Origin: Mesorhizobium liriopis
Lineage (GTDB): Bacteria > Pseudomonadota > Alphaproteobacteria > Rhizobiales > Rhizobiaceae
NCBI RefSeq assembly: GCF_024053505.1
Contig: NZ_JAMXQS010000007.1
Location: 1 to 64,000, forward strand
Length of the DNA stretch: 64,000 nucleotides
Reading direction: 5' to 3'
The notes under the pieces are model-generated. The model saw only the letters and a program-made list of their open reading frames with translations, searched no databases and was not told the DNA's origin. Numbering within the stretch: the first letter of the stretch is position 1; each line of letters opens with the position of its first letter. A program made the translations under genes and the position numbers. Below, in pieces: positions 41,250-59,817 of this stretch.

Positions 41250-42332
41250 ATGGCATCCTCAACCCCTGTTCGCTTTTCCCCTTCGGTCGAGGAGATCATG
41301 CCCGACGAGCGCGAAACCATTGAAGAGCTGAACAAGGCTTTCGACGAAATTCTGGAAACCACCTCCAAGGACTACGGCCATGCGGTGCGCTCGGTTCATG
41401 CCAAGGCACATGGTATTCTGGAAGGCACGCTGAGGATCGGCGAGAATCTGCCTCCGGAACTCGCTCAGGGGATTTTCGCCAAGCCTGGCGAGCACAAGGT
41501 CTATCTGCGCATCTCCACCAATGCCGGCGACATCCTCGAAGACGCGATCTCGCTGCCGCGCGGGGTTTCGATCAAGGTGCTCGACGTGGAAGGCGAGCGC
41601 CTGCCGGATGCGGAAGGCACGACGCAGGACTTCATCATGGTCAACGGTCCGGTCTTCCAGGCCAAGACCGCAGACAAGTTTCTCGGCAACCTGAAGCTTC
41701 TGGCGAAAACCACCGATGTGGCCGAAGGCGGCAAGAAGGTGATGTCCTCGGTGCTCCGTGGCGTTAACACGGCGCTTTCGGCGGTCGGCATCGAAAGCAC
41801 GGTGGTCCAGTCGCTGGGCGGCGCGCCGAACGTCGATCCGCTCGGCGAGACCTATTACAGCGTCACCCCGTTCCGCTTCGGCGACTACATCGCGAAGTTC
41901 AGCCTGAAGCCCGTTTCGCCCGATCTGACGGCACTCTCCGGCAAGGAAATCGATGCGAGCGGTCGCCCCGATGCCATTCGCGAAACCGTGCAAGAGGAGA
42001 TGAAGGGCATCGTCGGCGTCTGGGAGTTCCGCGTGCAGCTATGCCGGGATCTGGAAAAACAGCCGGTCGAAGACCCGACGGTCGAGTGGAAGGAAGACGA
42101 GGCGCCCTTCCAGACAGTGGGCACGATCACCGTCGGCCATCAGGACAGCTGGGACCCGCAGCGCGTGCAAAAGGTGGACGAGGAGATGCGCTTCAGCATC
42201 TGGACGGGCATCACGGCGCATCAACCGCTCGGCAATATCAACCGAGCACGCAAGGATCCGTATCGTCACTCGGCGAACTTCCGCCAACGCTTCAACGGCT
42301 GTCCGATCCACGAGCCGTCGGCACGCGCGTAA
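41250..42332 (+). CDS. Catalase-like heme protein (SrpA/Y4iL type)
   Basis: A 360-aa protein of the catalase superfamily, shorter than classical clade catalases. Early HAVRSVHAKAHG contains the distal His position, LRISTNAGDILED follows, and the C-terminal part has RQRFNGCPIHEP. It resembles the Y4iL-like catalase subgroup of rhizobia, whose enzymatic activity (peroxidase, catalase or other) is poorly known. AAGGG precedes the ATG. A strong hairpin follows the stop. Confidence 0.87.
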   Translation: MASSTPVRFSPSVEEIMPDERETIEELNKAFDEILETTSKDYGHAVRSVHAKAHGILEGTLRIGENLPPELAQGIFAKPGEHKVYLRISTNAGDILEDAISLPRGVSIKVLDVEGERLPDAEGTTQDFIMVNGPVFQAKTADKFLGNLKLLAKTTDVAEGGKKVMSSVLRGVNTALSAVGIESTVVQSLGGAPNVDPLGETYYSVTPFRFGDYIAKFSLKPVSPDLTALSGKEIDASGRPDAIRETVQEEMKGIVGVWEFRVQLCRDLEKQPVEDPTVEWKEDEAPFQTVGTITVGHQDSWDPQRVQKVDEEMRFSIWTGITAHQPLGNINRARKDPYRHSANFRQRFNGCPIHEPSARA

Positions 42333-44056: not shown

Positions 44057-46849
44057 TCAGCCCAGGAGGCGCGGGGCGATCTTGTTGCTCTCTTCGTTCC
44101 CGGGCATCACGAAGTCGCTCAGTCTCCTGCGTGGGTGGCCCAGGAGGAAGCCTTGCGCCTCGCGGCAGCCCGCAGCGCGCACCAGTGTCAGCTGGTCTTC
44201 CGTTTCCACGCCTTCCGCCGTGGTGTCGAGACCGAGCTGGTCGGCGAGCCGCACGATGGTGGACACGATCGCCGCCGAATTCGGATGCGTGGTCATCTCC
44301 CGCACGAATGACTGGTCGATCTTGATCTTGCTGAAGGGAAACGAACGCAGATAGCCCAGTGCCGAATAGCCGGTGCCGAAATCGTCCAGCGCGATCTTGA
44401 TGCCTTCATCATGGAAGCGGCGCAGCAGTTGCGCCACGCGGTCGCTGTCGGCGAGGAGGGCTGATTCCGTGATTTCAAGCTCAAGCCGGCTCGGCGGCAT
44501 GCCCGAATGCTTGAGCGCATCCATCACGGTCGTGAATATCCCGTCCGAGCGCATCTGCACCGGCGAAAGATTGACCGCGATCCTGAGCGGCACGCTCATC
44601 TGGCTCGCTTCGAGGCAGGCTTGCGCCAGTACATAAGCCCCGATCTCCTCGATCAGGCCGGTTTCCTCGGCGAGCGGCACGAAATCCGCAGGGCTGACGC
44701 GTCCACGCTCGGGGTGGTCCCAGCGGGCAAGCGCTTCAAAGGCCACCGGTGCGTTTGTCTTGAGGTCGAAGACCGGCTGGTATTCGACCACGATTTCCTG
44801 TCGCAGAATCGACTGCTGAAGGTCCTGCGCGAGGTCGTGGCGATGCAGAAGGCGGGTTTCCACAGCCGGGTCGAAGAAGCGGCAGGTGCCGCGCCCGGCG
44901 CCTTTCGCCTCGTAAAGCGCCATATCGGCCATGCGCAACAAAGTGTCGGCATCGTGCGCGAGCTTGTTGGCGATCATGATGCCGACGCTCGCGCCGATGG
45001 TGACGGGCCGCCCCTTCAGGCGGAAGGGTCGCGACAAGCTGGCAACGATCTTCTCGCCCAGCCGGCGCGACTGAAACACCGGCTCGGCGAACAGGCAGGC
45101 GATCGCGAATTCGTCGCCGCCGAGTCGCGCGACCAGGCCGCTTTCACCCACGCAGGCCTCGAGCCGCCTCGCGACCTCGCGCAGGAGCATGTCGCCCACG
45201 GGATGGCCGAGCGTGTCGTTGACCTCCTTGAAGCGGTCGAGATCGAGATAAAGCAGTGCCAGCGTGCCCGAGCCGCCGAGCTCGGAGGCGAGCGCCATGC
45301 GGTCGAGCTCGGTGCGAAACAGCGCGCGGTTGGTCAGGCCGGTCAACGGGTCGTGATGGGCAAGGAAGCGGATCTGGCGCTCCTGCTCGATCAGAACCGC
45401 GTTGCGCGCTTCCGCCTCGCGATGGGCGCGCTCGGCTTCCAGTCTTGCTGCTTCGAGGGCGGCCTGAGCCTGTTTCAGCGGTGTGATGTCGGTGCGGATA
45501 CCGACCCATTCGCCGGCTTCGGTGCGTCGCTCCTTGGCCAGGAGCCAGCGTCCGTCGGCCAAGCGATATTCGAGCGAGCCCTCGGCCTTGCGATGCCAGT
45601 TCAGCAGATCGCCGATCCAGTGGTCGCGGTCGGCCTCATCTTCGCGGTGATAACGGCCGTCTCGCGCGGCGTCCCGCACCATGTCCTCGAATGAGGTGCC
45701 GGGAACGAAAAGCTCGCCGGTTTGCAAGAAGAGGTCGCGAAACTTCGCATTGGACATGATCAGCCGGTCATCGGCGTCCCACATGGCAAAACCGTCGGAC
45801 ATCGCATCGATGGCGTTTTCGAGCGTGCGGCGGGCGCGCATGCGTTCCTGTTCCAGCTGCTCGCGGCGGCGCAGGGCCGCGAGCAGGCCACCGGCCGACG
45901 CGAGCATCAAAAGCTCGGCAAGGGAAACGAGCATCAGGAGCCGGTCCTGATCCTGACGCCAGTCCGCCATGGTTACGGACGCATCGGCTACGACCTCCAC
46001 AATCACATCGTCGTAAAGCGTGGTTCGCGTCGTGCTGAAGGAAGACGACCCGTCGGATGGTTCGGCTGCCTGCTTCCCCATGGCGAGTTCGTCATGGGGA
46101 AGGCTTGCGAGCAACGTCTTGTTCGGGCGCTCGAGACGGATTTGAAGCGTCGGGCTTCCGGCCGCCTCGAGCAGAAGCCGGGTCAGGCGCGCCGCCGGCA
46201 CTTCCGCGGCGGCCCAGAACGGCTGATTGCCGGAAAGGGATACCGGGCGCACGAGATAAAGCGACCATTCACCGGTTTGCGGGTTGCGCACCGGTCCCAT
46301 CAGACGCGAACGGCCGCCCAACCGTTCACCATCACCCGCGCCTGGAGCAATGCCGATCGCTTGGCCGAGCGGGCGCGAACGGCCCGATGCCCAGACCGTG
46401 CCGTCGGGCGACAGAAGAACGAGATCGCGAAAAACAAGGCTTTGCGCGTTGAAGCCCTGTAAAAGCCGCGACGCCGTTTCCGAGCTTGCAGCCGCTCCGT
46501 TCGAGCCCGCCGCTGCGAAGAGGTCAGGCAGGCTCGCCAGCACGCTGTCGATCTGAAGCAACTGGCGGTTCACCGTGCTTTCGATGATGGTCGCGGTGCG
46601 GGCAAGCGAATTCTCCGCAGTGGAACGCGCCATCTGCCAGCTGCGCTGAAGCAAAAGGGCCGAGGTGCCGATCAGCCCCGCTGAGAGAATTGCGGTGACA
46701 ATCACGACGGCAGTGACGAGGCGAGCGCGGAACCCGGTCAGGAATCGACGAGCCAAGCGAATGGGGAGAGACAATGCGGCGTGAAGCGGGCGCTGCCGCA
46801 TCTGACCACCGGTCCTGTTGCCGAATCTATTGCTTTCCTTTCGCGTCAT
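44057..46849 (-). CDS. Membrane PAS-GGDEF-EAL protein (c-di-GMP synthesis/breakdown)
   Basis: A 930-aa inner-membrane enzyme. In order: TM helix (about 44-67), a periplasmic sensor region of about 230 residues, second TM (about 300-325), PAS-like domain (SDGFAMWDADDRLI), coiled coil (QAALEAARLEAERA), GGDEF domain with intact GGDEF at 577-581, and EAL domain with EALARW at 705, plus NLSPVQM, EITESAL, DDFGTGYSALG and KIDQSFV. Both c-di-GMP synthesis and hydrolysis motifs are complete; no RxxD inhibitory site precedes GGDEF. The ATG at 46849 overlaps the stop of the DctP-like gene (ATGA), so the two are coupled and the binding protein probably acts on the periplasmic region. Confidence 0.9.
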   Translation of the reverse strand: MTRKESNRFGNRTGGQMRQRPLHAALSLPIRLARRFLTGFRARLVTAVVIVTAILSAGLIGTSALLLQRSWQMARSTAENSLARTATIIESTVNRQLLQIDSVLASLPDLFAAAGSNGAAASSETASRLLQGFNAQSLVFRDLVLLSPDGTVWASGRSRPLGQAIGIAPGAGDGERLGGRSRLMGPVRNPQTGEWSLYLVRPVSLSGNQPFWAAAEVPAARLTRLLLEAAGSPTLQIRLERPNKTLLASLPHDELAMGKQAAEPSDGSSSFSTTRTTLYDDVIVEVVADASVTMADWRQDQDRLLMLVSLAELLMLASAGGLLAALRRREQLEQERMRARRTLENAIDAMSDGFAMWDADDRLIMSNAKFRDLFLQTGELFVPGTSFEDMVRDAARDGRYHREDEADRDHWIGDLLNWHRKAEGSLEYRLADGRWLLAKERRTEAGEWVGIRTDITPLKQAQAALEAARLEAERAHREAEARNAVLIEQERQIRFLAHHDPLTGLTNRALFRTELDRMALASELGGSGTLALLYLDLDRFKEVNDTLGHPVGDMLLREVARRLEACVGESGLVARLGGDEFAIACLFAEPVFQSRRLGEKIVASLSRPFRLKGRPVTIGASVGIMIANKLAHDADTLLRMADMALYEAKGAGRGTCRFFDPAVETRLLHRHDLAQDLQQSILRQEIVVEYQPVFDLKTNAPVAFEALARWDHPERGRVSPADFVPLAEETGLIEEIGAYVLAQACLEASQMSVPLRIAVNLSPVQMRSDGIFTTVMDALKHSGMPPSRLELEITESALLADSDRVAQLLRRFHDEGIKIALDDFGTGYSALGYLRSFPFSKIKIDQSFVREMTTHPNSAAIVSTIVRLADQLGLDTTAEGVETEDQLTLVRAAGCREAQGFLLGHPRRRLSDFVMPGNEESNKIAPRLLG

Positions 46850-47922
46850 CGCGTTGGAACCTTCGATCCCACCACCGGTGCGATGTACCGGTTCCACGAT
46901 GTGCCGCAAGAGGATCCGCAGCGATCCAGCCAACGCGGAAGCAGGACTTCAGCCAACAGTCTTTCCCTCTCCCGTTCATCTTCCGCTTTTCGTGGAACGA
47001 TCAGCATATGCGCCAGGCCTGCGGGGTCTTCGCAGGCCGTGGTGTTCAAGGCGCATTCGAAAGGCAGTGCCGTTTCTCTGGCGGCCGCATCCCAGATGCG
47101 GCTTTCGAGATCCGAAAGCCCGCGCAGTATGGTGTCGCGCCTGTCGGCCTGGATCTTGCGCCAGGCACCGTGATTGGCGGCAAAAAGCGAAATGCCCCAG
47201 CTCAACGCCATCGCATGCATATGCGAGGCGAGCTGCGTCACGCCGATCTGCCTGCCGCTCGACGCGCTGGTGATCACGCAATCCACTACATCGGCCTGAA
47301 AGGCTTCGCGTAGTTCGGCGAAGGGAATCACCACGCCGACCGCGCCCAGGCCTGATACGAAGTCGGACTGGGACGCCGAAGAGGTTCGAATCCGTCGTCC
47401 GCGCAAGTCCTCGAAAGAGGAGAAAGGTGTTCGGCAGAGCATGACCTGCGCCGGGTAGGTATAAACTGCCAGCAGTTCGGCATCGTAACGGTCGGACAGG
47501 ATCTCGCTCAAGCGAGGCCGAAAGGCTGCCACCACGCGCCGCAACGTGGCAATGTCCGGATTGAGGCCGGGCAGATCGACCGCCGCGAGTTCCGGCTCAT
47601 CGGCAGATGCGACCGCCGCCAGTACGGTGGCAAAAGGCACGACGCCCAGCCGCAACAACGGCAGCAGATCCTCGCTGCTCAAACCGCTCCGGTCGAATGG
47701 AGCGATGGTCGCACGGATGCTGCCGTCGGACAGGTGTTCGATCTCACGGGTCCAGAACGGCTCCTCGAATTCGCGATACTGTGCGACTGCACCCAGGCCG
47801 CCGACGATCTTGAGCTCGAGCGCTTCATGCGCGCGCGCGCCAGTCACGAGCAGCAGCAGCGCGCAGATCGCGAACAGGCCTCTTTCGAATCGCAGGCCGC
47901 TGAATGGCGGTCGGTGGAACAC
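46846..47922 (-). CDS. Periplasmic DctP-like binding protein coupled to GGDEF/EAL
   Basis: A 358-aa exported protein with a hydrophobic signal segment (FAICALLLLVTGARA). The body matches the TRAP-transporter DctP solute-binding fold, clearest at FEDLRGRRIRTSSASQSDF and the following GVVIPFAELREAFQADVVDC, with the conserved arginine that binds carboxylates at RIR. No TRAP membrane genes (dctQ/dctM) are present. Instead the next gene is a membrane GGDEF/EAL enzyme starting inside this stop codon. A sensor role for a small organic acid is therefore inferred. The start is GTG at 47922 with no good ribosome site; it could be wrong. Confidence 0.82.
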   Translation of the reverse strand: MFHRPPFSGLRFERGLFAICALLLLVTGARAHEALELKIVGGLGAVAQYREFEEPFWTREIEHLSDGSIRATIAPFDRSGLSSEDLLPLLRLGVVPFATVLAAVASADEPELAAVDLPGLNPDIATLRRVVAAFRPRLSEILSDRYDAELLAVYTYPAQVMLCRTPFSSFEDLRGRRIRTSSASQSDFVSGLGAVGVVIPFAELREAFQADVVDCVITSASSGRQIGVTQLASHMHAMALSWGISLFAANHGAWRKIQADRRDTILRGLSDLESRIWDAAARETALPFECALNTTACEDPAGLAHMLIVPRKAEDERERERLLAEVLLPRWLDRCGSSCGTSWNRYIAPVVGSKVPTR

Positions 47923-47999: not shown

Positions 48000-48103
48000 A
48001 ACTTGAACCCCGGACTGCGAGATGATCACGCCGCATTGACTTCCGCTGGCTGTCCGGCGACGAACCTATGAGCAATGGGGCGAGACAGCATGATAGGTCG
48101 GGC

Positions 48104-49354
48104 GTGAAGCGCTATTCGGCATGGGAACTGGTTCGCGAAGGCCTGCGCGACCACAAAGGCTGGCAGCCGGCCTGGCGCGATGCGACCCCCAAATCCTCCT
48201 ACGACGCCGTGATCGTGGGCGGCGGCGGGCATGGGCTCGCGACCGCCTATTATCTTGCCAAGAACCACAACATCACGCGGGTGGCGGTGATCGAGAAGGG
48301 TTGGCTCGGCGGCGGCAATACGGGGCGCAACACGTCCACGATCCGCTCCAACTACTTCTATCCCGAAAGTGTGGCGCTCTACGATTTCGCGCTGAAACTC
48401 TATGAAGGGCTGGGGCGCGAGCTCAACTACAACATCATGCTGTCGCAGCGCGGCGTGGTGACGGTGGCGCATTCGGAAGCCGAGATGGAAATCGCAGCGC
48501 GCACCGTGAACGCGATGCAGATCAACGGCACGGATGCCGAACTGCTCGACCGCCACGACGTGCTCAAACGCGCGCCGCTGTTGAACGACAGCCCGCAAGC
48601 GCGCTTCCCGATCTTCGGCGGCTCGTGGCAGGGCCGCGCGGGCGTCGCACGCCACGATGCGGTGGCGTGGGGCTATGCGCGCGGGGCCAGCGATCTCGGC
48701 ATCGACATCATCCAGAACTGCGAGGTCGCGGGCTTCCTCATCGAGAACGGACGTTGCCGGGGCGTGGAAACGTCGAGGGGCACGATCCGGGCGGACAATG
48801 TCGGGCTGACGGTGGCGGGCAGTTCCTCGGTGCTCGCGAACCTCGCCGGGTTCGAACTGCCGATGCGCACCTATTCGCTGCAGGCCATGGTGTCGGAGCC
48901 GATCAAGCCGGTACTCGATACGGTGGTGCTTTATCTCGGCACGGGCACTTACCTCTTCCAATCGGACAAGGGCGAGATCGTCGTCGGCGGCGGCATCGAC
49001 CGCACGCCGTCCTATGCCCAGCGCGGCAATCCGCCGGTGCAGACGCAGGTGATTTCGGGCCTGCTCGAAATGTTTCCGTCTTTCGGTCAGTTGAGGATGC
49101 TGCGGCAATGGGCAGGAGCCGTGGATGTGGTGCCCGATTCCTCGCCGATCATCGGACCTTCCCCCGTGCCGGGCCTTTATCTCAATTGCGGCTGGGGCAC
49201 GGGCGGGTTCAAGTCGATCCCGGCCGGCGGCTGGCTGCTCGCGCACCTGATCGCCAATGGCAGCCATCATGAGATCAGCCGTCCCTTCGATCTCGACCGC
49301 TTCCGCACCGGCCGCCTGATCGACGAGGCGGCGGGGTCGGGCATCGCGCATTGA
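48104..49354 (+). CDS. soxB: Sarcosine oxidase beta subunit
   Basis: A 416-aa FAD/FMN-binding subunit of the cytoplasmic heterotetrameric sarcosine oxidase, which oxidises sarcosine to glycine and, with tetrahydrofolate, 5,10-methylene-THF. N-terminal KRYSAWELVREGLRDHKGW is typical of SoxB; the Rossmann motif VIVGGGGHGLATAYYL follows; the segment VARHDAVAWGYARGA corresponds to the region with the covalent FMN histidine. GTG at 48104 gives the family length; an in-frame ATG at 48068 adds 12 residues and is the alternative. Confidence 0.94.
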   Translation: MKRYSAWELVREGLRDHKGWQPAWRDATPKSSYDAVIVGGGGHGLATAYYLAKNHNITRVAVIEKGWLGGGNTGRNTSTIRSNYFYPESVALYDFALKLYEGLGRELNYNIMLSQRGVVTVAHSEAEMEIAARTVNAMQINGTDAELLDRHDVLKRAPLLNDSPQARFPIFGGSWQGRAGVARHDAVAWGYARGASDLGIDIIQNCEVAGFLIENGRCRGVETSRGTIRADNVGLTVAGSSSVLANLAGFELPMRTYSLQAMVSEPIKPVLDTVVLYLGTGTYLFQSDKGEIVVGGGIDRTPSYAQRGNPPVQTQVISGLLEMFPSFGQLRMLRQWAGAVDVVPDSSPIIGPSPVPGLYLNCGWGTGGFKSIPAGGWLLAHLIANGSHHEISRPFDLDRFRTGRLIDEAAGSGIAH

Positions 49355-49358
49355 AGCC

Positions 49359-49395
49359 TGATCCCGAAAAGTTGCAGACTTTTCGGATAAGATCA
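49359..49395. repeat. Rhizobiales dispersed palindrome inside the sox operon
   Basis: A perfect 9-bp stem, CCGAAAAGT and ACTTTTCGG (49364-49372 and 49378-49386), is enclosed by outer TGATC and GATCA, followed by GC. This pattern closely resembles the short intergenic palindrome scattered through Mesorhizobium and related genomes. It lies in the 63-bp soxB-soxD gap and could act as an RNA hairpin that changes the ratio of subunits. Confidence 0.7.
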
Positions 49396-49417
49396 TGCGC
49401 CCTTGAGAGAACAGACT

Positions 49418-49774
49418 ATGCAGATTTTTCCCTGTCCGTTCTGCGGTTCGCGCGACGAGACCGAATTCACCTTCGGTGGTGAGGCCGGCAAGGTGCGCCC
49501 TGCACCCGCAGATGCCGTGTCGCCGGAAGACTGGTCGCGCTTTCTCCATCTTCATCCCAATCCGCGCGGGGCCGTGCGCGAGATATGGCGGCACGACACC
49601 TGCGGTGAGTTCTTTCTGATGGAGCGGGATACGCTGACGCATCGGGTTTCAGCCACGCATTCCCTGCGCGAGGAAGGCGCGCAGGCATCCTCGGCCTCCG
49701 TGCCGCACCAGGGCGAAAGCTTCGGCACGCTGACGCCGGGCGTCGAAACAGGAACCAGCGAGGCCGGCCTGTGA
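49418..49774 (+). CDS. soxD: Sarcosine oxidase delta subunit
   Basis: A 118-aa zinc-binding subunit. The N-terminus FPCPFCGSRDETEF and a later HDTCGEFFLMERD supply the Cys, Cys, His, Cys ligands. The last 30 or so residues (Ser/Gly/Thr-rich, SVPHQGESFGTL) extend beyond the conserved core. The ATG has GAGAGA upstream; the stop overlaps soxA as GTGA. Confidence 0.93.
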   Translation: MQIFPCPFCGSRDETEFTFGGEAGKVRPAPADAVSPEDWSRFLHLHPNPRGAVREIWRHDTCGEFFLMERDTLTHRVSATHSLREEGAQASSASVPHQGESFGTLTPGVETGTSEAGL

Positions 49775-52572
49775 CATCGCGGCGTTTGGGTGAAATCGGC
49801 CCGCTTTCCTTTTCCTTCGACGGCAAGCCCTATCGCGGGCGTGATGGCGATACGCTCGCCTCAGCACTTCTCGCCAATGGCGTGCGCCTGGTCGGGCGAT
49901 CGTTCAAATATCACCGCCCGCGAGGGGTATGGGGTTTTGGGGCGGAAGAGCCCAATGCGCTGTTCGACGTGACGGAAAACGGCAAGACCACGCCCAATCT
50001 GCGCGGAACGACCGAACTCTTACGCGATGGCATGGCCCTCCGCTCGGTGAATGCGGCACCTACCGCCGCAAGCGATCGCTATGGCGCGCTCGACCGGCTC
50101 GCGCGCTTCCTGCCCGCCGGCTTCTACTACAAGACCTTTCTGTGGCCCGACTGGCACCGTTTCGAGCCGAGCATCCGCAACATGGCTGGACTGGGCCGGC
50201 TGGACGGGGCGCATCAGCCGGCGGCCGAGGTGGCGACGGTCAGTGCGCAGTGCGATAGGCTGGTGATCGGTGCGGGGCCGGCCGGGCTCACGGCCGCGCG
50301 GGCAGCGGCGGGTCTTGGCTCGGTCATGCTGGTGGACGACCGCGTCCTGCCCGGCGGCTCGCTGCTTTGGTGCGAAGCGGAGGTCGAGGGACGGGCGGGG
50401 CCGGACTGGGCGCGCTCTATCACGGACGATCTGCAGGCGGGGGGCCACACGGTCCTGTCCCGCGCCACCGCATACGGCATCTACGACCACAACCTCGTCG
50501 CCATCTGGGAGCGCCGCGAAAACCTGCCCGACCGGGTCTGGCGCGTGCGGGCCAAGGAGATCGTGGTCGCAACCGGTGCCATCGAGCGGCCGCTCGTCTT
50601 CGCCGACAATGACCGGCCCGGCGTGATGTCGGCCGAAGCAGGGCTCTATTACCTCAAACGGCACGATGTGCTGGTGGGCGAGCGCGTCGCGGTCTTCACC
50701 AACAATGACAGCGCCTATCGCACGGCCGGTGAACTGGCACGGGCAGGCGCCCGCGTGATCCTGGCCGACACCCGTCGTCAGGCTGGTGTCGTCGCGCCCG
50801 AAGGCGTCGAGTTGCGCATGGGAGCATCGGTCGAGGCCGTTTATGGCGCGCGTGGGGTCGAAGCGGTTTCCATGGACAAACGGCGCCGCGAGGCGGATGC
50901 GGTTCTGGTGTCGGGCGGCTTCACGCCCACAGTCCACCTGTTCTGCCAGAACAAGGGCAAGCTGCACTACGACGAGAAGCTCGGCGCACTGGTGCCGCGC
51001 GAGCCGGTGGAAGGCATGCGCGTGGTGGGTGCCGCGAACGGCGCATTCGGGCTCGATGCCGCCTTGAGCGATGGCGCCGGCGAGGAAGCGCTGGGCGAAA
51101 CCTACGGCATCGCACCGCTCTGGCCGAAATCGTCGGGCAAGAGCCGCCAATGGATCGACTTTCAGAACGACGTGACGCTGAAGGACGTGGAACTCGCCGC
51201 GCGCGAGAACTTCCGTTCGGTCGAGCACCTCAAGCGCTACACCACGCTCGGCATGGCGACCGACCAGGGTAAGACCTCGAACATGAACGGCTTGGCCGCC
51301 ATGGCTGCGATCACGGGGCAGGGGATCGAGGCGACGGGCACAACGACCTACCGCCCGCCCTTCACGCCGGTGCCGCTCACCGCCATTGCAGGCCGCAGGC
51401 GTGGTGAGCTTTTCAACCCTGTGCGGCGCCTCCCACTCGAAGCGCGGCATCGTGCGGCGGGTGCCACCTTCCGCGAATATGGCGGCTGGCTGCGTCCGGC
51501 CTGGTTCGGCGAGGGCACCAAGGACGAGGCCGTGCGCCGGGAGGCTGAGCGGGCACGCGAAACCGTCGCCATTCTCGACGGCTCGCCGCTCGGCAAGATC
51601 GAGGTCATGGGGCCGGATGCCGGGCGGCTCGCGGATTTCAACTCCTACAACACGCTTTCGACGCTAAAGCCTTGCCGCATCCGCTACGGCTTCATGCTGA
51701 CCGAAAGTGGCGTGGTCTATGATGACGGCGTGTCGCTGAAAGTGGCGGACGACCATTATCTGGTGTCGTGCTCGTCGGGCCATGTCGCGGGCGTTTATGC
51801 GCGGCTCGAAGAATGGCGGCAGGACGGGTTCGATCCGGGGCGCGTCTTCGTCCACAACGCCACGCCGCAGTGGGCGACGCTGACGGCGAGCGGCCCGCGT
51901 GCCAAGGCCTTGGTCGAGGCGCTGAGCCTCGGCGTCGATCTGAGTGATGAAGCCCTGCCGCATATGGCGTTTGCGCAAGGCCGCTTCGGTGCCGTGCCTG
52001 CGCGCGTAGCGCGGGTGAGCTTCACCGGCGACCGATCCTATGAAATCTCGGTGCCGTCCAGGGCGGCCGGCGCGTTGCTCGATGCCATGCTGGAAGCAGG
52101 CCGTCCGCTCGATGCCGGGCTGATGGGCTCGGAAGCGCTTCTGCTGCTGCGCGCCGAAAAGGGCTATCTCATCGCCGGCAAGGACACGGACGGCACGACC
52201 ATGCCGCATGACCTTGGCGTGTCGGGGCCGCGGAGCAAGCGCAAAGACGAATTCATGGGCAAGCGCTCGCTCTTCACTGAAGAAGCCGAGCGCGAGAACC
52301 GTCAGCAATTCGTCGGGCTCGAAGCCGAGACCTTATTGCCGACCGGTGCACACGGCGTTGAGCGCGTGAGCGAGAAGCGGCGCTCGATCGGCTTCGTAAC
52401 GTCGAGCTACCAGAGCCCGACGCTCAAGCGGCCCATCGCGCTCGGGCTGATCGAGCGGGGTTTGAGCCGGGTTGGTGAAGAGATCGAGCTGGTTCATCTC
52501 GGGCAGACGTTCCGCGCGCGTATTTCCACGCCTTGCGCCTTCGATCCGGAAGGAGTGCGCCTCAATGCTTGA
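49771..52572 (+). CDS. soxA: Sarcosine oxidase alpha subunit
   Basis: A 933-aa multi-domain subunit. A small N-terminal ferredoxin-like domain without cluster cysteines (FDGKPYRGRDGDTLASALL) is followed by an NAD/FAD domain (VIGAGPAGLTAARAAAGLG), a long central part and a C-terminal GcvT-like aminomethyltransferase domain (VYARLEEWRQDGFDPG through GAHGVERVSEKRRSIGFVT), which uses tetrahydrofolate. GTG start in the soxD stop; ATG of soxG lies inside its last codons. No folD, purU or glyA follows, unlike in some relatives. Confidence 0.94.
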   Translation: MTSRRLGEIGPLSFSFDGKPYRGRDGDTLASALLANGVRLVGRSFKYHRPRGVWGFGAEEPNALFDVTENGKTTPNLRGTTELLRDGMALRSVNAAPTAASDRYGALDRLARFLPAGFYYKTFLWPDWHRFEPSIRNMAGLGRLDGAHQPAAEVATVSAQCDRLVIGAGPAGLTAARAAAGLGSVMLVDDRVLPGGSLLWCEAEVEGRAGPDWARSITDDLQAGGHTVLSRATAYGIYDHNLVAIWERRENLPDRVWRVRAKEIVVATGAIERPLVFADNDRPGVMSAEAGLYYLKRHDVLVGERVAVFTNNDSAYRTAGELARAGARVILADTRRQAGVVAPEGVELRMGASVEAVYGARGVEAVSMDKRRREADAVLVSGGFTPTVHLFCQNKGKLHYDEKLGALVPREPVEGMRVVGAANGAFGLDAALSDGAGEEALGETYGIAPLWPKSSGKSRQWIDFQNDVTLKDVELAARENFRSVEHLKRYTTLGMATDQGKTSNMNGLAAMAAITGQGIEATGTTTYRPPFTPVPLTAIAGRRRGELFNPVRRLPLEARHRAAGATFREYGGWLRPAWFGEGTKDEAVRREAERARETVAILDGSPLGKIEVMGPDAGRLADFNSYNTLSTLKPCRIRYGFMLTESGVVYDDGVSLKVADDHYLVSCSSGHVAGVYARLEEWRQDGFDPGRVFVHNATPQWATLTASGPRAKALVEALSLGVDLSDEALPHMAFAQGRFGAVPARVARVSFTGDRSYEISVPSRAAGALLDAMLEAGRPLDAGLMGSEALLLLRAEKGYLIAGKDTDGTTMPHDLGVSGPRSKRKDEFMGKRSLFTEEAERENRQQFVGLEAETLLPTGAHGVERVSEKRRSIGFVTSSYQSPTLKRPIALGLIERGLSRVGEEIELVHLGQTFRARISTPCAFDPEGVRLNA

Positions 52573-57409: not shown

Positions 57410-57895
57410 ATGCCTTTCCGCCTCCTTGCCCTTACTTCGGCCATTGCTCTCGGTCTCGCTTCGCTATCCGCTCCCGCAAGCGGTGGCGCACCGATCCTCG
57501 TTCTGGGCGGGACGGCGGCCAAGCCTGCACAGGCGCTCGATCTGGCCGGGCTCGATGCGATGCCCCAGACGAGCTTCGAGACGAACACGCCGTGGCATAA
57601 GGGACCGGTTACATTCTCCGGTGTGCTCCTGAAGGATTATCTGGCGACGCTCGGTGCGCATGGCACCCGGGTGCAATTGATCGCGCTCAACGACTACACG
57701 GTGGAAGCGCCGGTCGATGAACTCGTGGAAGGCGGCGCTCTTCTGGCGACACGGCAGAACGGGCAGCCTATGCCGGTCAGCGAGAAAGGGCCGGTCTTTC
57801 TGCTGTTTCCGTTCGACAGCCGTAAGGAATTGCAGCACCAGACCTATTACAGCCGCTCGGTCTGGCAGCTCAGCGAGATCGACATTCTCGAATGA
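57410..57895 (+). CDS. pruR: PruR-like periplasmic pterin-binding protein
   Basis: A 161-aa exported protein with a signal peptide (to about residue 24, APASG). The mature part has a reduced molybdopterin-oxidoreductase (SUOX) fold: TFSGVLLKDYLATLGAHG, then IALNDYTVEAPVDEL, GPVFLLFPFD and C-terminal YYSRSVWQLSEIDI. Residues for molybdenum are lacking and the length is about a third of true oxidoreductases. Its stop overlaps the next gene, a membrane GGDEF/EAL enzyme (ATGA). This is the arrangement of pruR-dcpA in Agrobacterium, where pterin-loaded PruR controls DcpA from the periplasm. I infer the same here; pterin binding itself is not visible in the sequence. Confidence 0.75.
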   Translation: MPFRLLALTSAIALGLASLSAPASGGAPILVLGGTAAKPAQALDLAGLDAMPQTSFETNTPWHKGPVTFSGVLLKDYLATLGAHGTRVQLIALNDYTVEAPVDELVEGGALLATRQNGQPMPVSEKGPVFLLFPFDSRKELQHQTYYSRSVWQLSEIDILE

Positions 57896-59817
57896 GTCTG
57901 CCTGCCGATCAGGAACCGTTCAGAGGCTTTCGCCGTCTGCGCATCGGGCTCATGACGGTCACCGTATCGCTTGCGATCATGGCGGTCGCCTGCTCCGTTC
58001 TGGCTGTCGGTTATCAGCAGCGCATCATTCAGGCCTCGCGCTACAACAACACCTTCGATTTCGGTCAGATGTCGGCGGAACTCCTGCGTTTCCAGTTGTC
58101 GCTGGCGCAGGTCACAGCGGGCGGCAGCGGCAGTGACGTCTCGCTGCGCTACGGGATTCTGCTCAACCGTCTCGATATCATCACAGCGAACGAAACGCTC
58201 GACGCCATCGACCATGATGGGTTGATCGCTCGCCTCCAGAGCACCGTCCGAAGAATGGGCCGGCTCGCCAACGACGTTCCCAGCGTGGTTGAAGCACACG
58301 CAGCAGGCGAAGAGCTGCGACCCTTCACGCGGCCCATCCTCCAGTTCGTCTCGCTGTCTCACGCTCAAGCCGGTGACGACGTGCTCGACAACCAGCGGCG
58401 GTTGTGGACGGTTTTCGCGGCCTTGTGTGGCGTGACACTCGCGCTGGTCCTGTTCGGTGCCGCACTGATCGCCTTCGTTTTCCGTCAGAACCTGCGGCTG
58501 ACCCGCGTGTTGCGCACCGATGCGCTGACGGGCATCGCCAATCGCTTCGCCTTCAGCGCGAAACTGCGCAAAGTCGCCGAAGGCCAGCGGGCCATCGTGA
58601 TTGCCGGTGTCGATCACTTCAAATCGCTCAACGACACGCTGGGCCATGAAGCGGGGGACCGGCTGCTGCTGGCGCTTTCGGAACGCCTGAAAGACGCTAC
58701 GGCCGATGCTGCGATGCTTGCGCGCGTCGGCGGCGACGAGTTCGCCCTGCTTTATGCAGGCCCCGGCGCGCTCGAGATGGCACAAGCCGCAAGCGCGCGA
58801 ATGCTCGCTGCGATGCACGAACCGTTCTCGCTCGAAGGCCGTTCCTTACGCGCGAACATCACGCTCGGCATGAGCGCAACTGCGCTCGATGGCGCGGGCT
58901 CGTCACTCTCGCTCTTCAAGGAAGCCGATATCGCGCTCGCCGCAGGCAAGAAGGATGCGCGGGCCAGGGCCACGCTGTTCCACCCTGATATGAAGCAGAG
59001 CTTCGAACGCCGCCAGAAGCTCAAGGCCGACCTGCGAGACGCCATTGCTCGCGGCGAACTGTTTCTGCTCTTCCAGCCGATCGTCAACATCGTGAGCGGA
59101 CGAACGCGCGGCTTCGAGGCCCTTCTGCGCTGGCATCACCCGGAATTCGGCCTGATTTCGCCGGTGGAGTTCATCCCGATCGCAGAGGAAGACAACCAGA
59201 TCGTGGTGATCGGTCGGTGGGTGATCGCGGAGGCCTGCAAACAGGCCGCGCTTTGGCCCGGCGACATCTTCGTCTCGGTCAACGTGTCGGCGCGGCAACT
59301 CGCGGATTCAGGTCTCGCCACCCATTTCCGCGACTGCCTCGCAGACAACGCTGTCGGCTACCGCCGCATGACGGTGGAGATCACGGAATCGACGCTGATC
59401 GAGAACGACGATGTGGCGCTCGGCGTGCTTCACGAGCTGCGCGCGATGGGCTGCCGCATCGCGCTCGACGATTTCGGCACGGGCTATGCGTCGCTCAGCT
59501 ATCTGCGGCGCTTCCCCTTCGACAAGCTCAAGATCGACAAGTCCTTTCTGCACGGCAGCGCCATGGCAGAGGACAGGGCAGCAATCATCGGCATGATCTG
59601 TGCGCTTGCCCAGCGCCTGGGCCTCGAAGTGGTGGGTGAAGGAATCGAGACGGAGGAGCAGCGATTGATCCTCGCGCAAACAGGTTGCGCGCTCGGTCAG
59701 GGCTACCTTTTCGATAAGCCGCTGTCGCCCCTCGACGGGACGGCTCGTCTCATGCAGGAGGCCACTGTGAGAGGCGGCATGAGCCTGCCGAAGCAACCCG
59801 CACGAGCGGTCGCCTGA
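57892..59817 (+). CDS. dcpA: DcpA-like membrane GGDEF-EAL protein
   Basis: A 641-aa inner-membrane enzyme: TM helix (about 18-41), a periplasmic region of about 130 residues, TM helix (about 174-198), GGDEF domain (GGDEF at 280-284) and EAL domain (EALLRW from 409, with NVSARQL, EITESTLIEN, DDFGTGYASLSYL and KIDKSFL). Both active sites are intact; no RxxD inhibitory site is seen. In Agrobacterium, DcpA switches between c-di-GMP synthesis and breakdown, with PruR favouring breakdown and so low attachment. The start ATGA overlaps pruR. It lies between visNR and the flagellar switch genes. Confidence 0.85.
   Translation: MSLPADQEPFRGFRRLRIGLMTVTVSLAIMAVACSVLAVGYQQRIIQASRYNNTFDFGQMSAELLRFQLSLAQVTAGGSGSDVSLRYGILLNRLDIITANETLDAIDHDGLIARLQSTVRRMGRLANDVPSVVEAHAAGEELRPFTRPILQFVSLSHAQAGDDVLDNQRRLWTVFAALCGVTLALVLFGAALIAFVFRQNLRLTRVLRTDALTGIANRFAFSAKLRKVAEGQRAIVIAGVDHFKSLNDTLGHEAGDRLLLALSERLKDATADAAMLARVGGDEFALLYAGPGALEMAQAASARMLAAMHEPFSLEGRSLRANITLGMSATALDGAGSSLSLFKEADIALAAGKKDARARATLFHPDMKQSFERRQKLKADLRDAIARGELFLLFQPIVNIVSGRTRGFEALLRWHHPEFGLISPVEFIPIAEEDNQIVVIGRWVIAEACKQAALWPGDIFVSVNVSARQLADSGLATHFRDCLADNAVGYRRMTVEITESTLIENDDVALGVLHELRAMGCRIALDDFGTGYASLSYLRRFPFDKLKIDKSFLHGSAMAEDRAAIIGMICALAQRLGLEVVGEGIETEEQRLILAQTGCALGQGYLFDKPLSPLDGTARLMQEATVRGGMSLPKQPARAVA

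Follow-up and report, generated by a model that had tools for sequence, protein, structure and literature searches.

A DctP-like binding protein gene paired with a dCache receptor gene for c-di-GMP turnover: a putative two-part periplasmic sensor in Mesorhizobium liriopis

The gene pair and its two proteins

The window analyzed here is the whole 64,000-nucleotide stretch of Mesorhizobium liriopis DNA (contig NZ_JAMXQS010000007.1, positions 1 to 64,000), and its subject is a pair of overlapping genes, the first for a secreted solute-binding protein of DctP type and the second for a membrane receptor with domains for synthesis and breakdown of cyclic di-guanosine monophosphate (c-di-GMP) (Table 1). 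Both open reading frames (ORFs) were recovered on the minus strand with the lengths and coordinates that a first-pass annotation of the sequence had given them. The TGA stop codon of the DctP gene (46848-46846) shares bases with the ATG of the enzyme gene (46849-46847), forming the sequence ATGA. The first-pass annotation had described a secreted protein with the DctP fold, joined through this overlap to a 930-residue enzyme with a large periplasmic region, a PAS domain and intact GGDEF and EAL domains, and the ORFs, Pfam matches, motifs, sequence and structure models bear it out. Its statement that the locus holds no dctQ or dctM genes, which belong to tripartite ATP-independent periplasmic (TRAP) transporters, also stands, as tblastn found no DctQ or DctM match within 1.5 kb on either side of the pair (locus L004).

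Table 1. Position of the gene pair and of its domains in the window.
Feature	Position	Strand	Basis
DctP-like secreted solute-binding protein, 358 residues	46846..47922	-	ORF; Pfam PF03480, 47.2 bits; AlphaFold model; nearest structures 2PFY/2PFZ, Z 34
ATGA shared by the DctP stop codon and the enzyme start codon	46846..46849	-	sequence
Membrane receptor/enzyme dCache-PAS-GGDEF-EAL, 930 residues	44057..46849	-	ORF, Pfam
Periplasmic dCache sensor domain, residues ~70-299, conserved DctP partner	45953..46642	-	model, pLDDT 88.8; 3LIF, Z 18.4; profile A4
PAS_7 domain, residues 347-462	45464..45811	-	Pfam, 63.3 bits
GGDEF domain, residues 497-654, motif at 577, RxxD I-site absent	44888..45361	-	Pfam, 135.5 bits; motifs
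EAL domain, residues 675-906, EAL at 705	44132..44827	-	Pfam, 241.9 bits; motifs

The binding protein exceeds the cut-offs of Pfam DctP (23.4 bits) and, with 63.1 bits, of NCBIfam TRAP_S1 (50 bits), and with 38.5 bits it misses the cut-off of 175 set for NCBIfam TIGR00787 dctP. By eye, residues 1-31 look like a signal peptide ending ARA|HEA. The AlphaFold model (mean predicted local distance difference test, pLDDT, 93.5) has a complete DctP fold, the closest folds being DctP7 and DctP6 of Bordetella pertussis (2PFY and 2PFZ, root mean square deviation (rmsd) 2.4-2.6 over 300 residues, 16-20% identity); fold and profile together place the protein in family 7/DctP. By their titles, both entries are extracytoplasmic solute receptors solved with pyroglutamate.

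In the receptor, Pfam finds the PAS_7, GGDEF and EAL domains listed in Table 1, and its dCache_1 match stays below threshold (23.6 bits, cut-off 45). In a model of residues 1-345, long helices flank the periplasmic domain, of which residues 72-299 superimpose on 3LIF with an rmsd of 3.4 over 215 residues. Despite the weak Pfam score, the modeled periplasmic part is clearly of the dCache type, with a predicted tandem Cache fold enclosed by a pair of long membrane-spanning helices. The motifs GGDEF, EALARW, NLSP, EITES, DDFGTG, KIKID and AEGVE are all present, and with the GGDEF and EAL motifs intact both activities of a dual c-di-GMP enzyme are predicted.

Conservation of the pair and exchange of its output

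Eighty related loci were gathered through DctP similarity only, 77 by a peptide-pattern scan of genome contigs with the DctP alignment and three by tblastn in plasmid records, so that the count of neighbors is unbiased by the receptor and divergent DctPs are missed. The same receptor sensor domain, detected with profile A4, lies directly downstream of DctP in 74 of the 80. It is joined to GGDEF/EAL domains in 56 loci and to a hybrid histidine kinase in 13, and in five it is partial and near a contig end; among the remaining six loci, one contig stops at the DctP gene and five have no receptor. The flanks examined contain no DctQ or DctM match in any of the 80. Such conservation of a binding-protein gene beside a membrane receptor gene is a trait of solute-binding-protein-dependent receptors, and by these neighbor counts the pairing exceeds chance. 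Four nucleotides are shared by the two genes in 53 of 72 related pairs, a count that leaves out the unpaired loci L108, L110, L113 and L114 and for which a script chose starts near the DctP stop, favoring overlaps. In the 76 loci where both ORFs could be assigned, DctP and the receptor are never fused.

The pair was found in Comamonadaceae, Acetobacteraceae/Roseomonadaceae and Hyphomicrobiales, the named genomes with it being mostly Comamonadaceae or other Burkholderiales (genera including Variovorax, Acidovorax and Rhodoferax). In the plasmid records, the best matches are three Comamonadaceae/Variovorax proteins of 42-45% identity, each followed by a GGDEF-EAL gene, and the four examined among the next matches (30-36% identity) all adjoin TRAP permease genes. 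The kinase partners have the order PAS_7-HisKA-HATPase-receiver in 12 of 13 cases; at L072 the frame ends after HisKA. Among 54 partners of loci L036-L118, 15 lack part of the EAL motif set used. Eight of these 15 were re-inspected: five have ECL or EGL and so keep the glutamate, L066 has AEGIE, and L053 and L083 each miss one later motif in the form used for the set. An RxxD site before GGDEF is kept in 53 of the 54 and, by motif reading, is missing from the window receptor, as it is from L167 and L168 among seven Hyphomicrobiales partners read. At L036 (3013-8989, Variovorax paradoxus) the pair has an additional GGDEF gene in front of it, overlapping by 1 nucleotide, and at L047, L081, L087 and L091 GGDEF and EAL matches occur on the DctP strand, upstream of the gene.

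Samples of 397 Hyphomicrobiales and 398 Pseudomonadota genomes, both including the window genome, were also searched; at most five first-look candidates were scored per genome, so matches may be missed. In Hyphomicrobiales the DctP profile gives eight matches at 464-531 bits, the window included, and the rest reach at most 400 bits. All eight adjoin a receptor, and the four matches just under this gap all lie beside DctQM. For the receptor profile the gap falls between 207 and 114 bits, and in the 21 loci read for receptor-like matches of 92-114 bits none has a DctP upstream. GGDEF and EAL domains are found in each of the nine Hyphomicrobiales receptors. In this order the pair has a real, patchy distribution, with nine of 397 genomes containing it; DctP is shortened in one of the nine. 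In Pseudomonadota the three DctP matches above the gap, one of them the window's, are all paired; among the 18 listed with lower scores (275-388 bits), 16 lie beside TRAP genes, one by a TorS-like kinase and one at a contig end.

Closer to the window genome, in 60 relatives, spanning 36 other genera of its family, the best DctP matches have 28-34% identity, and 13 of the first 14 (L005-L018) are TRAP-linked, L011 having no DctQ/M in its flank. The N-terminal part of the receptor, used as a single query, has no match in these 60 beyond its own genome; the window's genus is represented in the sample by this genome only, and profile A4 was needed to detect the receptor elsewhere. The TRAP-linked relatives were considered as a refutation of the pairing and rejected in that role, as the tree described below puts them outside the paired branch. 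Two of the findings that the first-pass annotation had named as counting against a paired system were checked and did not hold. The pair is not confined to this genome, in view of the 74 loci and nine Hyphomicrobiales genomes; of the other, relatives beside dctQ/dctM, there is no case among the 80 loci of the window's own branch, and most of the next most similar DctPs do fit it.

In a tree of 99 DctPs (the window, the 80 loci, 17 TRAP-linked proteins and L011), a support of 99 attaches to the split between the 81 proteins of the search branch and the remaining 18. In a larger tree, from which L018 and L011 were dropped because of their long branches, 35 TRAP-linked DctPs and the TorS-linked one lie together on one side (support 99; 65 for the 35 alone). 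GGDEF-EAL and kinase partners interleave on the DctP tree. At least six changes of label are needed for EAL and seven for the kinase, of which well-supported branches force four and three, respectively. The tree thus records repeated exchanges of output, with DctP and the sensor domain staying together; the input pair is constant while the output swaps between c-di-GMP domains and a histidine kinase. The TorS-linked DctP (376 bits), in genome G740 (L210, 4532-9813), is followed by a large hybrid kinase that reads by eye as TorS-like. Since its place in the tree is with TRAP-linked proteins, it looks like a separate recruitment to signaling.

Within the pair, DctP is far better conserved than the sensor domain, with mean identities of 60% and 42% in 51 GGDEF-EAL pairs and 28 invariant positions (20 rows) against four (21 rows), as expected if signal recognition sits in DctP. 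R179 of the window protein aligns with an arginine in both DctP7 and DctP6 and is invariant in all 84 rows of the signaling group and in all 36 TRAP-linked rows. At window position 228, by contrast, the TRAP-linked rows have tryptophan (36 of 36) and the signaling rows leucine, valine or isoleucine (84 of 84). These 84 rows contain at least two duplicates (G141, the L066 genome, and G627, the L082 genome) and six rows with the receptor cut or unseen, and the window genome is in all samples; the 36 contain one duplicate (L008/L181), and L117, with a DctP match split over two frames, was dropped. An arginine like R179 holds the carboxylate in the DctP family. From the fold, the invariant arginine and the pyroglutamate bound in the nearest structures, we infer that the ligand would be a small organic acid, a carboxylate. 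A redox-sensing role of the six invariant cysteines was weighed and discarded as a distinguishing trait, since four of them also occur in all 36 TRAP-linked rows and the other two in 20 of these.

The proposed sensor and its alternatives

We consider it quite probable that the two genes encode the halves of one sensor, in which DctP binds a carboxylate and controls c-di-GMP turnover by docking on the dCache domain. This proposal builds on the computed fold, the pairing, the lack of transporter genes, the conserved receptor domain and the exchange of output. The exported DctP-like protein would take a small carboxylate into its cleft and close; in this loaded form it would dock on the receptor dCache domain, and docking would shift the balance between synthesis by GGDEF and breakdown by EAL and hence the cellular c-di-GMP level. 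In relatives the same two-part input would drive a hybrid histidine kinase. Sensing from the periplasm as such is well supported by the gene pairing.

Several observations pull the other way. Five DctPs in Acetobacteraceae/Roseomonadaceae (L108, L110, L112, L113, L114), with scores of 362-407, have neither a receptor nor a TRAP match nearby; by label counts they appear to fall within the signaling group of the larger tree. In a ninth Hyphomicrobiales genome, G412, the DctP gene (L164, 4319-4963) is shortened to 214 residues before a full-length receptor ORF. Genome G601 (L194/L211) has a family receptor (192 bits) with GGDEF-EAL and no DctP within 1.5 kb upstream, which suggests that the receptor may act alone there. 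Going by entry titles, dCache domains in the PDB often carry small ligands themselves. Finally, the distances between DctPs correlate with those of the GGDEF-EAL part (0.76) as they do with those of the sensor domain (0.75). As a test of contact this correlation does not discriminate sensor from output and was set aside; with equal values, shared inheritance alone could explain it.

The ligands seen in other dCache domains, together with the G601 receptor, would fit a receptor that binds the ligand itself, with DctP serving as a collector or buffer, or as an inhibitor released when loaded, rather than as an activator that docks when loaded. The distribution of invariant positions, so few in the sensor domain and so many in DctP, looks instead as if recognition sits in DctP, and we regard direct binding by the dCache domain as unlikely. 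The equal correlations are also what would be expected if the pair were kept by shared operon inheritance only, with the proteins acting apart. This is very improbable given that the output has been swapped while DctP and the sensor stay adjacent, across Comamonadaceae, Acetobacteraceae/Roseomonadaceae and Hyphomicrobiales.

A further alternative is that the window DctP is an orphan TRAP solute receptor serving a DctQM encoded elsewhere, its place by the receptor being a convenience of the operon. The full DctP fold, the arginine retained from TRAP-linked relatives and the presence of DctM genes in ten of the 11 pair-bearing genomes searched are in line with it. Against it stand the missing DctQ/DctM at all 80 loci and the replacement of the TRAP-linked tryptophan at position 228 throughout the signaling rows. 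In addition, genome G382 (completeness 100, contamination 2) contains the pair with no DctM match and shows no DctP match other than the paired gene; at the window and the related loci, neither DctQ nor DctM is encoded beside DctP. Two DctM genes occur in the window genome itself, on contigs C5 and C17, and both have a different DctP close by (on C17 on opposite strands), which leaves the window DctP surplus. From genome content and neighbors, transport by the window protein appears unlikely, and the orphan explanation as a whole seems rather improbable.

More broadly, it seems likely that one branch of DctP left transport entirely and became a dedicated sensor subunit, forming with dCache a single carboxylate input for c-di-GMP enzymes or kinases in Alpha- and Betaproteobacteria, and that a TorS-like kinase (G740) recruited a DctP a second time, independently. 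Both annotated records examined from the signaling branch are labeled "TRAP transporter substrate-binding protein"; this label points to uptake, while the evidence points to signaling. To our knowledge, the signals of c-di-GMP enzymes are mostly not known, and the pair offers them a defined, testable input. As the same input stands on two outputs in dozens of genomes, it would also give a route to ask how a binding protein drives dCache, and whether the ligand stays constant when the output changes.

The flanks of 91 loci were also searched for a further conserved gene that might hint at the ligand; apart from the pair and reading frames that overlap it, the window region has nothing in common with the others. 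A gene group that takes in TctC-type binding proteins is present at 15 of these loci (L035, L050 and L110 for example), with both output classes and in varying places and strands, and is absent from the window. TctC-type genes are numerous in these groups, and the recurrence is possibly due to chance. In the window, sarcosine-oxidase-like genes (DAO; GCV_T/SO_alpha_A3) at 48068-52572 on the plus strand are divergent from the pair and are not common to the other loci. At 41250-42332, also on the plus strand, a 360-residue ORF that matches no Pfam family at 1e-5 is followed by a glutathione-transferase-like gene.

Comparison with known systems

LuxP-LuxQ and TorT-TorS each consist of a binding protein and a kinase to whose periplasmic domain it docks; LuxQ, like the window receptor, has a domain of tandem PAS/Cache-like type. 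Their binding proteins come from other families than DctP, and their known outputs are kinases only. These systems share with the window pair the general scheme of a binding protein and a membrane receptor. Kinases activated by binding proteins are a known kind (PMC9602780, PMC11113362), and a census in the first has 13 of 22 binding-protein families acting on receptors. As domains inside c-di-GMP enzymes, members of the binding-protein clan have been studied only for SBP_bac_3, according to a review of c-di-GMP sensing (PMC8846402).

The window protein does not resemble NspS in these searches, as Pfam gives DctP only and the nearest folds listed are of DctP type. NspS itself belongs to a different binding-protein family. 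In Vibrio cholerae and Sinorhizobium meliloti, NspS-MbaA combines a periplasmic solute-binding protein with a membrane c-di-GMP enzyme for polyamine sensing, as PMC9993111 describes. The window pair is alike in that a periplasmic binding protein would work with such an enzyme, and differs in using a DctP-family protein and in the kinase output possible in relatives.

PruR-DcpA and PruR-DTB, from Agrobacterium tumefaciens and others, are two-gene operons with the secreted binding protein first and a receptor with c-di-GMP or kinase output; PruR is a sulfite oxidase (SUOX)-like pterin-binding protein of ~170 residues, and the periplasmic domain of DcpA has a WX7E motif (PMC13259868). Gene order and the exchange of output between c-di-GMP domains and a kinase are shared with the window pair, whose sensor is instead a 358-residue DctP and whose receptor domain is dCache. 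The first-pass annotation had pointed to the same logic 10 kb away with an unrelated sensor fold, and a PruR-DcpA pair indeed lies there on the plus strand, with a gene of Oxidored_molyb type (57410-57895, 161 residues) overlapping a GGDEF-EAL gene (57892-59817, 641 residues) by 4 nucleotides. Unlike the first of these, the DctP-like protein has no Pfam match to Oxidored_molyb, the SUOX fold of PruR.

A binding protein that both transports and signals is found in Bordetella, where BctC, a TctC protein and the citrate-binding protein of a secondary transporter, signals through BctC-BctE and still serves its transporter (PMC5812351). The window protein, unlike BctC, has no adjacent transporter genes. 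DctP7 and DctP6 of B. pertussis, its nearest solved folds, are solute receptors in the portion of their description available, which mentions no signaling partner. In searches of the open-licence literature, judged mainly by the papers listed, we recognized no description of a DctP or TRAP binding protein paired with a c-di-GMP, GGDEF/EAL or kinase receptor. What the first-pass annotation had put forward as its best candidate for an undescribed signaling system is more aptly described as the known arrangement of solute-binding protein and receptor in a new variant form, with DctP and a dCache receptor.

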